From a virus, in IMG/VR virus record IMGVR_UViG_3300033146_000462, positions 1 through 22,958 of that record: a stretch of DNA of 22,958 nt; one strand, given 5' to 3'. The position numbers and the translations under genes were made by a program. Shown here one piece after another: positions 20,261-22,958 of the stretch; position 1 is the first letter of the stretch; every line of letters starts with the position of its first letter. Below the pieces are notes generated by a model. That model was given only the letters and a program-made list of their open reading frames with translations. It searched no databases and had not been told where the DNA came from.

Positions 20261-20552
20261 CGGTTATAGTATTATATTGCATATCTCTATTGTATCTTTA
20301 GTCGCTATCACTCTACTCCGCTTACACCAACCAACATTTTTACTATATCGTGTGTCCTACCTATCCCGCATACCTTAGTAATCTAATCAGCTACCATTTA
20401 ATACTACTTAATTTCACTTTGGTATAAATTCATTTAATTTATATCCCATAATCCCATTAAGTAATATTCTTTTGGTCTTTTTTTGTTTCATTCCCTTTGC
20501 CTCTGCGGTAGTCATTCCCTATCTCTGCTTCTTTGCGACCTGTCTTATTAAG

Positions 20553-20584
20553 CAAAGATAGTGAATTTCTACCACAAAGTCAAA
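20553..20584 (-). promoter_or_regulatory. Bacteroides-type promoter, probable main leftward (late) promoter
   Basis: On the minus strand TTTG (20584-20581) is separated by exactly 20 nt from TATCTTTG (20560-20553), a textbook Bacteroides -33/-7 pair. Just upstream (20592-20610) is a long T-tract on the minus strand, which could act as an UP-like element. Transcription would start near 20546 and the long leader contains two copies of AGGGAATGA (see findings). It would serve the leftward virion block. Confidence 0.8.
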
Positions 20585-20673
20585 TGAAATACAAAAAAAA
20601 ACCAAAAAAATATTACTCAAAGTGATAGGAGAAAATTTTCTGACGAAAATTTCCCAGCTTACTTGACTAATCT

Positions 20674-20830
20674 ATGAATTTAGCTTTTAATTTAGCTTTT
20701 AATTTATTACTTAACTTAATTATTAACTTAGCTTTTAATTTAAAGGCTTACTCAGCTTTTAGCTCAGCTTTTAATTTAGCTTTTAACTCCGGATTGAATT
20801 TAGCTTTAAATTTAGCTTTAACATCTAATC
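20674..20830 (+). repeat. Hexamer-periodic AT tract (TTAGCT/TTTAAT family)
   Basis: The sequence can be cut in six-base steps, with TTAGCT and TTTAAT (and TTAAAT, TTTAGC) recurring for about 150 bases. The combination TTAGCTTTTAAT occurs several times. The plus-strand frame reads as alternating NLAF units, a by-product of the 12-base period. It is AT-rich and T-rich on the plus strand, resembling an iteron-like or DNA-unwinding tract rather than a gene. Confidence 0.75.
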
Positions 20831-20894
20831 TCATCTATCCTCGTATTTTAATTTAAGTTATACCTTTAACCGTATTTGACTTCTTAGCGTTAAT

Positions 20895-20929
20895 CCCTTA
20901 TTATATTCTAATGCTCCACTTAATAAGGG
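20895..20929. repeat. 8-bp inverted repeat leading into repeat copy 2
   Basis: CCCTTATT at 20895-20902 pairs perfectly with AATAAGGG at 20922-20929, with a 19-nt loop. The right arm overlaps the start of the dispersed repeat (copy 2), so the arm and repeat may form alternative structures. Confidence 0.6.
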
Positions 20930-20951
20930 TGCTATTAAGAAAAAGAAGGGA
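20927..20951 (+). repeat. Dispersed repeat copy 2, left arm of a 25-bp inverted repeat
   Basis: These 25 bases are exactly the reverse complement of 21073-21097. Beyond the core, the repeat continues to 20970 with CATTGACAAG, matching copy 1 at 11897-11943. The core has a purine run between GGGTGCTATTAAG and GGGA. Confidence 0.85.
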
Positions 20952-21072
20952 TACCATTGACAAGCGGACTTAATTCCTGTGGGCATACTTATAGTATTGA
21001 TTTAATTGTATTAAGTGTGTATGTTATATCAGTTACCTTAACCTCCACCAATCTTAGTTAGTGAGTGGTCAT

Positions 21073-21097
21073 TCCCTTCTTTTTCTTAATAGCACCC
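21073..21097 (-). repeat. Dispersed repeat copy 3, right arm of the inverted repeat
   Basis: It is a perfect 25-base reverse complement of 20927-20951, with 121 bases between the arms. The intervening DNA also holds CATAC...GTATG pairing, so a larger cruciform or hairpin is possible. No target-site duplication flanks the arms, so it is not a standard insertion sequence. Confidence 0.85.
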
Positions 21098-21101
21098 GTA
21101 T

Positions 21102-21128
21102 CAATCCCCTCTTTTTCATAGTAGCCCC
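21102..21128 (-). repeat. Degenerate repeat copy 4
   Basis: Directly after copy 3 in the same orientation. On the minus strand it shows GGGGCTACTATG, GAAAAAG and GGGGATTGA, matching the core with several substitutions and small indels. Copies 3 and 4 are nearly adjacent, as in a short tandem array. Confidence 0.55.
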
Positions 21129-21359
21129 TCCTTTAACTATTATCATAACTTATAATTTAACGTTTATCATATCATATTGCTAATCTATTGCCTTATTCCA
21201 ATCCTACTTAAATTTGTTTTGATTTAACGCCTATTTGATGCTATATTATAGCCTGCTTCCAAAATTAAATTAAATGCTCGTATGGGGCTTTATTGCAAGG
21301 TCTATGATTGAAATTCAGGGTATGGTATAAAAGGAAATATGATATAGATTATATGTGAG

Positions 21360-21403
21360 ATGATAGGTAGGATGATAGGTGAGATGATGATGATGGTAAT
21401 GCG
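21360..21403 (+). repeat. Short GATGATAGGT-type repeat tract
   Basis: GATGATAGGT occurs twice (21360-21379 area) followed by GATGATGATGATGGT, a purine-rich microsatellite-like run. It borders the larger hexamer tract to the right. No gene is supported here. Confidence 0.6.
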
Positions 21404-21484
21404 TATGCTAAGGTTAAGGTCCGGGTTAATACTACTATGTATACCATTAATCCCGCTAGGGTTTGAGTTACGGCTTATGGCAAT

Positions 21485-21850
21485 GGTTATGTTACATCTT
21501 TATACTAGTGGTTATGTTAGCGTTATACTAGTGTTATGTTAGTGTTATGTTAGTGTTTAGGCTAGCGATTGTATTACATCTTGCGACAATGTTAATACAA
21601 TGTGTGTGTTAAGTTTTTATACCAATACTAAGGTTAGTGTTTATATTACATCCTATGGTAATGTTTGTACTAGAGGCTATACTAAAAAGTATACTATCGG
21701 TTATGTGTATATTTATGTTTATGCTGGTGTTAGAGTTAATATTAATACTAAGGTTACTACTAAGATTACTACTAAGGTTAATGTTTATGTTACATCCTAT
21801 GTTAGGGCTTATACTACTATCTACGTCAGTGTTTATATTACATCCTATGG
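21485..21850 (+). repeat. Hexamer-periodic tract with TTACATC boxes
   Basis: The stretch is built from short steps around TTA/CTA (for example TTATGTTAGTG, ACTAAGGTTA). TTACATC occurs at 21492, 21574, 21646, 21790 and 21838; the last four are 72, 144 and 48 bases apart, all multiples of 24. A 23-base segment at 21636-21658 is repeated exactly at 21828-21850, 192 bases (8 x 24) away. The tract is T- and G-rich on the plus strand. Periodicity exceeds what single frames explain and codes for no convincing protein. Confidence 0.75.
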
Positions 21851-21900
21851 GGACCTAACTGATACCCCCGCGGGGCGATTAGATGAAGAAATACCCCCCG
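21849..21900. other. GC-rich hairpin cluster with CCCCGCGGGG palindrome
   Basis: In a very AT-rich region, GGGG at 21849-21852 can pair with CCCC at 21866-21869, and CGGGG at 21871-21875 with CCCCG at 21896-21900; the central CCCCGCGGGG (21866-21875) is itself palindromic. No T-run follows, so it is not a standard terminator. It lies about 130 nt before the first rightward gene, where a regulatory or barrier structure would fit. Confidence 0.5.
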
Positions 21901-22026
21901 TCAAAGTTAAATTGAAAGATAAGGTATTTCTCAACAACTATTCTAGATAGTACGTTGGAATATCCAGCTTAGGTTGTAGAGTTTCATTAGGTTACAACAA
22001 ACATTCACTCCAATTAAATTCAATAG

Positions 22027-22236: not shown

Positions 22237-22377
22237 TAGCTTCGACTACTGTAAGTATCAGTAGGTATAACAAACTACTTCCTCGTTAGAACGGTGAGAG
22301 GTACAGCATCGTGAGTTATAGGTATGGGAATACATACGCCTGCTTATAGCAATAGTATTAACATCTAATACTCTAAT
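22237..22377 (+). ncRNA. Structured leader/intergenic RNA before the 77-aa gene
   Basis: It contains a 6-bp hairpin CTACTG (22246-22251), 7-nt loop, CAGTAG (22259-22264), then blocks AGGTACAG (22299-22306), GTTAT (22315-22319), a hairpin around 22320-22341 with AGG/CCT and TATG/CATA pairs, and AGTATTAAC (22354-22362) before the ATG. The three blocks recur in the same order at 22637-22709. A 5' leader with a regulatory structure is likely; a free RNA is possible. Confidence 0.4.
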
Positions 22378-22611
22378 ATGAGTTTAAGACTTCCTCGTGT
22401 TGAGGATGATAGGTCTTTCCTTATAGAGTTAGGATACCAACTTAGAGCGAAAGTTCTAGACCATGATGGTTGGGTTTATACGTGGCATACAATGCACACG
22501 CGTACTCTAATCGTTGTGGGACAACGCAATTTAAATGCGTTAATAGCTGATAGAAAAGCTAATAACTCAAAAAATTGTAGAGTAAAGGTCCTAGCTGTAG
22601 TACAAGGTTAA
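22378..22611 (+). CDS. Small hypothetical protein (77 aa)
   Basis: The ATG at 22378 (MSLRLPRVEDD) follows the conserved leader. The product mixes strands and helices, with GYQLRAKVLDHDGWVYTWHT in the middle and a basic end (CRVKVLAVVQG); there is no signal peptide, and no motif that I recognise. The residues around DHDGWVYTWHTMHTRT could form a small beta sheet. Both this gene and the 69-aa gene start with M[D/S]LR. Probably one of a series of small right-arm genes, and likely early by position. Confidence 0.6.
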   Translation: MSLRLPRVEDDRSFLIELGYQLRAKVLDHDGWVYTWHTMHTRTLIVVGQRNLNALIADRKANNSKNCRVKVLAVVQG

Positions 22612-22636
22612 GACGATTGAGCGGCATCTCAAGATA

Positions 22637-22709
22637 AGACAACTGCTACTGTCCTAGTGTGGTAAGGTACAGTATAAACTCAGTTATCACTAGTATTAAC
22701 TCTTAAAAG
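22637..22709 (+). ncRNA. Second structured leader with the shared blocks
   Basis: Stem TACTGT (22647-22652) pairs with ACAGTA (22669-22674), with an inner CCT/AGG stem and loop AGTGTGGTA. CTAGTG inside the loop can also pair with downstream CACTAG (about 22688-22693), which would give a pseudoknot. Blocks AGGTACAG (22665-22672), GTTAT (22683-22687) and AGTATTAAC (22692-22700) match those at 22299-22362, and ATGAG follows in both. This is likely a repeated leader element of right-arm genes. Confidence 0.4.
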
Positions 22710-22750
22710 ATGAGAATGGTTGTACATAGGTTCGATTCCTATGCTCATCT
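22708..22750 (+). other. tRNA-like acceptor/T-arm hairpin, no D- or anticodon arm
   Basis: AGATGAG (22708-22714) pairs with CTCATCT (22744-22750), and CATAGG (22725-22730) with CCTATG (22738-22743), the inner loop being TTCGATT, a canonical T-loop. Only ten bases (AATGGTTGTA) lie where the D-arm, anticodon arm and variable loop should be. It may be a degenerate tRNA, an attachment-site-like tRNA tail, or chance within the overlapping small ORF. It is not a functional standard tRNA. Confidence 0.4.
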
Positions 22751-22808
22751 CAAAAAACCCTGTATGCTAAACAGGTGTGTGGAGGTCACAGACACCGCAT
22801 CGGAATAA
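22710..22808 (+). CDS. Possible 32-aa protein
   Basis: A frame starts at ATG 22710 (MRMVVHRFDSYAH...) and stops at 22808, giving 32 residues with three cysteines spaced as C-(5)-C... only loosely and several basic residues. Support comes only from the leader in front of it, which shares blocks with that of the 77-aa gene. It overlaps the tRNA-like hairpin, so either reading may be the real one. Confidence 0.3.
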   Translation: MRMVVHRFDSYAHLKKPCMLNRCVEVTDTASE

Positions 22809-22931: not shown

Positions 22932-22958
22932 ATGTACACAGCTACACGTTGTAGCAAA
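22932..22958 (+). CDS. Start of a further rightward gene (partial)
   Basis: ATG at 22932 opens a frame (MYTATRCSK) that is still open at the window edge. An AAGGGG sequence lies about ten bases upstream and could be a ribosome binding site. Nine codons are too few to judge; the support is position in a series of small genes. Confidence 0.3.

Follow-up and report, generated by a model that had tools for sequence, protein, structure and literature searches.

A covarying family of tRNA-like minihelices between phage genes, a candidate signal for cutting polycistronic RNA

In mitochondria, true tRNAs lie between the genes of polycistronic RNA and act as punctuation. How much of a tRNA does such a signal need? 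The minimal RNase P substrates (McClain, Guerrier-Takada and Altman; AT1, pMini) are hairpins made of an acceptor stem, a T-stem and a T-loop (PMC11143913), and the tRNA-like structures that plant viruses such as TYMV and TMV carry as tRNA mimics can be cleaved by RNase P (PMC12710915). Here we describe a phage-borne RNA element, a minihelix of 43 nt in the DNA analysed, that shares with the minimal RNase P substrates a core of about 12 stacked pairs with a T-loop cap (PMC11143913). Those substrates are synthetic and end in CCA, whereas the minihelices are natural, end mostly in CTA or CAA, and have a conserved D-loop-like linker between the stems that the synthetic hairpins lack. Like the mitochondrial tRNAs, they are tRNA-shaped and placed directly between the genes of a polycistronic unit, but they are anticodon-less mimics and their cleavage is putative. 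The TYMV and TMV structures cap the 3' end of RNA genomes by means of a pseudoknot, whereas the minihelices lie between genes of DNA phages and need none. With tRNA itself they have in common the T-arm, the acceptor helix and a D-loop-like GG, but they have no D stem, no anticodon arm and usually no CCA; with tmRNA (RF00023) they share an acceptor stem and T-arm with a stemless D-loop, but they have no mRNA part and no pseudoknots, and span 43 nt against about 370.

The window, meaning the whole 22,958-base stretch analysed, is a linear contig from IMG/VR and comes from a crAss-like phage (Crassvirales): PHROGs for portal, head and terminase are matched by the corresponding proteins, and its TerL is 43% identical to that of cr127_1 (Crevaviridae) over 94% of the TerL length. 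Structural genes occupy the minus strand and the right arm the plus strand, a divergent layout also found in crAss-like relatives; between the two arms lies about 1.7 kb (20261-22026) of low-complexity, largely non-coding DNA with repeats such as AATTTAGCTTTT and GTTATGTTAG. According to the ORF list, the contig holds the first two small ORFs of the right arm complete and no more. Neither of the two small right-arm proteins has close relatives in IMG/VR, and the 77-aa product has no family match in Pfam or PHROGs and no close relatives in phages. The features discussed below are as follows.

22246-22362, plus strand: leader copy 1, with the blocks CTACTGT, AGGTACAG, AGTTAT and TAGTATTAAC; weakly above chance
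22378-22611, plus strand: small ORF of 77 aa, from the ORF list; its stop codon lies 96 nt before P1 of the minihelix
22646-22700, plus strand: leader copy 2, repeating the four blocks of copy 1 in their order and lying immediately 5' of the minihelix; weakly above chance
22708-22750, plus strand: the whole tRNA-like minihelix, 43 nt; 62.3 bits, E ~1e-15 with model R3 (E-values of our home-made models are rough)
22708-22714, plus strand: 5' strand of P1, AGATGAG, the acceptor-stem analogue, containing the second ATGAG; pairs with 22744-22750
22715-22724, plus strand: linker AATGGTTGTA, similar to the D-loop of a tRNA (A-R-Y-G-G); the same in 45 of 45 strict members because the search required it
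22725-22730, plus strand: 5' strand of P2, CATAGG, the T-stem analogue; pairs with 22738-22743
22731-22737, plus strand: T-loop TTCGATT, within the canonical tRNA T-loop sequence GG-TTCGATT-CC
22738-22743, plus strand: 3' strand of P2, CCTATG; pairs with 22725-22730
22744-22750, plus strand: 3' strand of P1, CTCATCT; pairs with 22708-22714
22751-22757, plus strand: 3' tail CAAAAAA, compared with the family tail counts
22932-22958, plus strand: possible start of the next gene, from the sequence; its ATG lies 181 nt 3' of the minihelix and the frame runs off the contig

The first-pass annotation had seen AGGTACAG, GTTAT and AGTATTAAC in shared order before an ATGAG in two spacers, each time after a strong hairpin and in front of successive small genes, and had guessed at a common regulatory RNA, a processing site or a phage promoter. 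The order itself holds in both spacers: AGGTACAG lies at 22299-22306 and 22665-22672, AGTATTAAC at 22354-22362 and 22692-22700, (A)GTTAT separates the two words each time, and the resemblance extends to four blocks (CTACTGT at 22246 and 22646, AGGTACAG, AGTTAT at 22314 and 22682, TAGTATTAAC at 22353 and 22691). The first ATGAG indeed opens a gene (ORF 22378-22611, 77 aa), but the second (22710-22714) lies inside the tRNA-like hairpin at 22708-22750, its ATG opening a frame of about 32 codons, and does not start a gene. Nor did the strong hairpins survive comparison with chance, the leader regions folding no better than shuffles (z -0.32 and -0.03). Among 3000 dinucleotide-preserving shuffles of the two spacers, an ordered chain as good or better appeared 33 times (p ~0.01) and an ordered 8-mer plus 9-mer 18 times. 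AGGTACAG and AGTATTAAC each also occur elsewhere in the window without the leader arrangement, and the contig ends about 250 nt after copy 2. The resemblance of the two copies is probably real, but it is weak and confined to two copies.

Might the leader be a promoter or other regulatory leader for right-arm units, for example for a crAss-like virion RNA polymerase? In phiCrAss001 the early-expressed genes lie at one genome end, and in related crAss-like phages an early-gene operon at one genome end is transcribed by the virion polymerase (PMC8375218), which, with the four ordered blocks in successive spacers, speaks for such a role. The blocks, however, occur in two copies only, with spacing that differs by about 30 nt between them and no fold better than shuffles, and they do not recur outside the window: the leader is absent from the one relative checked, a 46-kb contig, and the exact pattern AGGTACAG..GTTAT..AGTATTAAC occurs in just 8 of 2.9 million viral contigs, in coding-looking sequence from a few unrelated groups. 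Some words do recur in the right arms of other crAss-like phages related to the window, but they are start-codon contexts or coding sequence and not this leader; in two of these relatives (L014 and L017), AACTATTTAATTATG is repeated directly at start codons, like a start-codon context. We regard the promoter reading as tentative, with the balance somewhat against it; it is compatible with the other readings discussed here, the minihelix being a separate feature 3' of copy 2. On similar grounds (two copies near a contig end, unrelated matches in the viral contigs, no copy in the relative, and no close relative of the right arm found) a common regulatory element could not be demonstrated. Of the three original guesses the processing site came nearest, although the element concerned would be the minihelix 3' of copy 2 and not the AGGTACAG leader.

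The minihelix reads AGATGAG-AATGGTTGTA-CATAGG-TTCGATT-CCTATG-CTCATCT, two perfectly paired stems joined by a 10-base linker and closed by a canonical T-loop. This structure is both the minimum-free-energy and the centroid fold of 22708-22750 (z -2.3), and in sequence and fold it places a canonical T-arm, GGTTCRANNCC, capped by the canonical GGTTCGATTCC loop, on a stacked acceptor stem. It scores 62.3 bits with R3, a model built from 28 members with the window and Mycobacterium phage Fowlmouth left out, and 63.9 bits with R1. The element has, in order, a P1 of 6-7 bp, an AAYGG linker, a P2 of 6 bp and the T-loop, and it is intergenic and on the sense strand, between the ORF at 22378-22611 and a possible ORF at 22932 that is cut by the contig end. 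By its modelled structure it is thus a clear member of the family described below. It begins 96 nt after the preceding stop codon, whereas elements in the phages that carry arrays lie within about 10 nt of it; tight stop-codon spacing is a trait of those array phages and not of every member, and given the looser geometry the window copy may be a marker for where a short leader or a small RNA ends. Two known identities were tried and rejected for the element: a cloverleaf tRNA, because only 10 nt separate the acceptor strand from the T-arm and ARAGORN makes no call, and a tmRNA, given 9 bits against the RF00023 gathering score of 47 and again no ARAGORN call. The window as a whole yields no Rfam 15 match at gathering score and no real tRNA or tmRNA by ARAGORN and Rfam 15. 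ARAGORN likewise makes no call on the family elements checked, for which RF00023 gives sub-threshold Rfam matches only.

How widespread is this architecture? The strict pattern ATGGTTGTANNNNGGTTCRANNCC occurs in 58 IMG/VR contigs (about 2 expected), most of them with the minihelix architecture, and in only 9 contigs (about 4 expected) of 257 Gb of bacterial and archaeal genomes, 7 of which have the fold, both expectations being our estimates from base counts and an assumed IMG/VR collection size. All 52 strict matches together form 301 P1 pairs; with the partners swapped among the sequences the number is 159. After removal of 7 poorly paired sequences, the 45 distinct strict members have a covariation score of 1.051, compared with 0.189 +- 0.020 in shuffles, and 94.5% of cells paired over 13 pairs, compared with 52%; sliding the partner by 1-3 columns destroys the covariation. 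Since the search itself sets the linker and the two inner P2 pairs, nothing can be read from their constancy; the other 11 pairs are free. In P1, 6 of 7 pairs are firm and all 7 show compensatory changes, although the first is often A-U or mismatched and not G-C; in P2, 4 of 6 covary and the remaining 2 are those set by the search, for 6 + 6 firm pairs in the family. A relaxed pattern (AAYGGTT, 5-11 bases, GGTTCGATTCC) gave, among the matches listed, 165 structured sequences of 198 distinct ones, and relaxed criteria yield at least 180 elements in at least 132 loci. Members beyond the strict pattern keep the linker GG (AACGGTT, ATTGGAT, ACTGGTT, AAGGTC), and the 6-bp stem is most commonly followed by N-CTA or N-CAA, with CGA also found, where tRNA carries N-CCA at the corresponding position. 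An unannotated Fowlmouth spacer, matched by blastn, has the linker and loop of the window copy with stems that differ yet pair. The family thus imitates the acceptor/T-arm half of a tRNA, 12-13 stacked pairs (P1 of 6-7 and P2 of 6 bp) under a T-loop cap. It is a covarying RNA family that spans more than 100 phage loci and is missing from Rfam 15: none of the elements in 10 member loci reaches a gathering score there, and the full text of open-access papers yielded no description of such elements.

Could the elements be leftovers of decayed tRNA genes, or tRNA-derived integration sites? Relatives carry true tRNAs in the same arm, and in cr109_1 (Crassvirales; L250), just before the DNA polymerase gene at about 1480-1540, lies a tRNA-like element that lacks the anticodon arm but has the acceptor stem, D-arm and T-arm, a form intermediate between a tRNA and the minihelix. 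Decay, however, would not yield one exact architecture with full compensatory pairing at more than 100 loci, and for an integration site the 3' half suffices, with no need of a paired 5' strand. Because of the covariation we consider an origin by tRNA decay, and the leftover reading as a whole, extremely improbable. Two further tRNA-like sequences were seen along the way: on the minus strand of L036, at about 1293-1400, one with a long distance between acceptor strand and T-arm on which ARAGORN makes no call, and near the minihelix of phiCD27 (L125, about 1325-1380) another possible tRNA-like fold, which has a T-arm and, in addition, a small hairpin.

Carriers include Mycobacterium phages Fowlmouth and Cuke, Clostridioides phages phiCD27 and phiCD418 and Streptococcus phage Javan199, and the minihelix is present in well over 100 phage sequences, of which many are not related to one another. 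One carrier is a Lactobacillus, and of 75 genomes in its genus 13 hold one copy each, a sporadic, prophage-like occurrence. Model searches of the window's own crAss-like relatives gave no minihelix above noise, and one array consensus searched for a plasmid home found no match. In the pre-terminase stretch of Streptococcus agalactiae prophages, some carry a tRNA-Ser, -Tyr or -His and related phages a minihelix. The element also occurs in large phages with tRNA clusters, inside or near the tRNA/tmRNA clusters; tmRNA genes were noted inside or near the tRNA clusters of four large phages (L067, L075, L078, L048). This company, with the tRNA-like elbow features, would suit an action in trans, in which a released 45-nt mimic occupies a tRNA-binding protein such as EF-Tu, a tRNA-modifying or -cutting enzyme or a host defence nuclease. 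A trans-acting RNA, though, would not require positions near stop codons nor, as in some genomes, ten or more copies with often different stems, and lacking an anticodon it could not be a decoy for anticodon nucleases; we judge this reading distinctly unlikely. A relation to Y RNA (Ro60/TROVE) was dropped, TROVE protein being found in none of 22 records other than the window, which included array phages and crAss-like relatives and many of which are fragments.

Where, then, do the elements sit? By mechanical ORF calls, on which the context statistics rest except for Cuke and Fowlmouth (depositors' annotation), 104 of 180 structured elements (58%) are clear of ORFs of at least 50 aa, compared with 10% of random positions; 76 overlap such a predicted ORF, 42 of them one of at least 100 aa, and some of these ORFs are probably spurious. 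Both flanking genes lie on the sense strand for 75 of 100 elements versus 163 of 338 random positions, the median distance from the upstream stop codon is 9 nt (relaxed-criteria elements), and the next start follows within 60 nt for 66 of 90. Arrays make the spacing plainest. Cuke (G056, L242) and Fowlmouth have 11 model matches each, and by the depositors' annotation 13 of their 17 full-length elements begin 6-8 nt after an annotated stop codon. In Cuke, 8 of the 12 gaps longer than 60 nt hold elements, as do 5 of the 10 in Fowlmouth, and some of the remaining gaps contain partial matches. Other arrays comprise about 10 elements (G037, L092) and 6 elements (G051, L155), and these two loci and L077 have a geometry similar to that of Cuke and Fowlmouth. 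Copies within one genome often differ in their stems, which indicates that selection keeps the fold and not the DNA, and makes a recombination site or a recent duplication a poor explanation. In three large phages (G006, G021 and G024; L051, L071 and L075), the minihelix begins 4-6 nt downstream of the 3' end of a GOLLD RNA. The minus strand of L159, at about 924-1778, carries six minihelices at intervals of about 150 nt, with no convincing genes in that stretch.

A position fixed at 6-8 nt from the stop codon, or 4-6 nt beyond GOLLD, would also fit a protective cap or spacer against 3'-to-5' exonucleases, or a ribosome insulator between genes, with no RNase P cut; another, different hairpin and a ribosome-binding site often lie between the element and the next start, in keeping with that. 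For this purpose, however, a plain hairpin would suffice, and the conserved T-loop, the D-loop-like linker and the 12-bp spacing, the distance that RNase P measures, would go unexplained. We think this reading unlikely, though it deserves some weight.

We favour instead a cis-acting, tRNA-type processing signal for RNase P in polycistronic phage RNA, to which we give an even chance. The firm 6 + 6 pairs and the placement right after stop codons and after GOLLD argue for a cleavage signal, and so for punctuation do the covariation, the enrichment in phages relative to bacterial genomes, the sense-strand intergenic placement and the exchange of tRNA and minihelix before the terminase in S. agalactiae prophages. 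We infer from these features the elbow, the enzyme, the cut and what the phage gains. The GG of the linker, D-loop-like, could dock into the T-loop to form a tRNA elbow; host RNase P would recognise the elbow and the 12-bp stem and cut at the 5' end of P1, so that the upstream message, or non-coding RNA, would end a few nt past the stop codon; and a second cut or trimming 3' of the element may release the next message, which would have a short leader of its own. This would amount to tRNA punctuation, as in mitochondria, by a minimal mimic without an anticodon. CCA strengthens cleavage by bacterial RNase P, and since most members lack it (CTA, CAA, CGA) and the first P1 pair is weak, the cut may be of reduced efficiency or made by another enzyme. 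The elements that overlap predicted ORFs (76 of 180) count against punctuation, as does the distance of the window copy from both neighbouring genes, and where the element stands alone, as it does in the window and in many contigs, the term is hard to apply.

Despite these reservations, a family that covaries across more than 100 phage loci and is absent from Rfam 15 is worth describing even without a mechanism. It offers annotators a simple model with which to find an RNA that Rfam and tRNA finders currently miss, and Cuke and Fowlmouth are cultivable test cases. In its widest form, our proposal is that phages of Mycobacterium, Lactobacillus, Streptococcus and Clostridioides, crAss-like phages and large phages with tRNA clusters carry an undescribed minimal tRNA mimic by which the host tRNA-processing machinery cuts polycistronic RNA into single-gene messages and sets GOLLD-type 3' ends, a generalisation we find plausible but rate a little short of even. 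If true, it would explain how messages are separated in long phage transcripts and how GOLLD-type 3' ends are made, and tRNA punctuation would extend beyond mitochondria, with many phages placing very small natural tRNA mimics at the ends of their genes.
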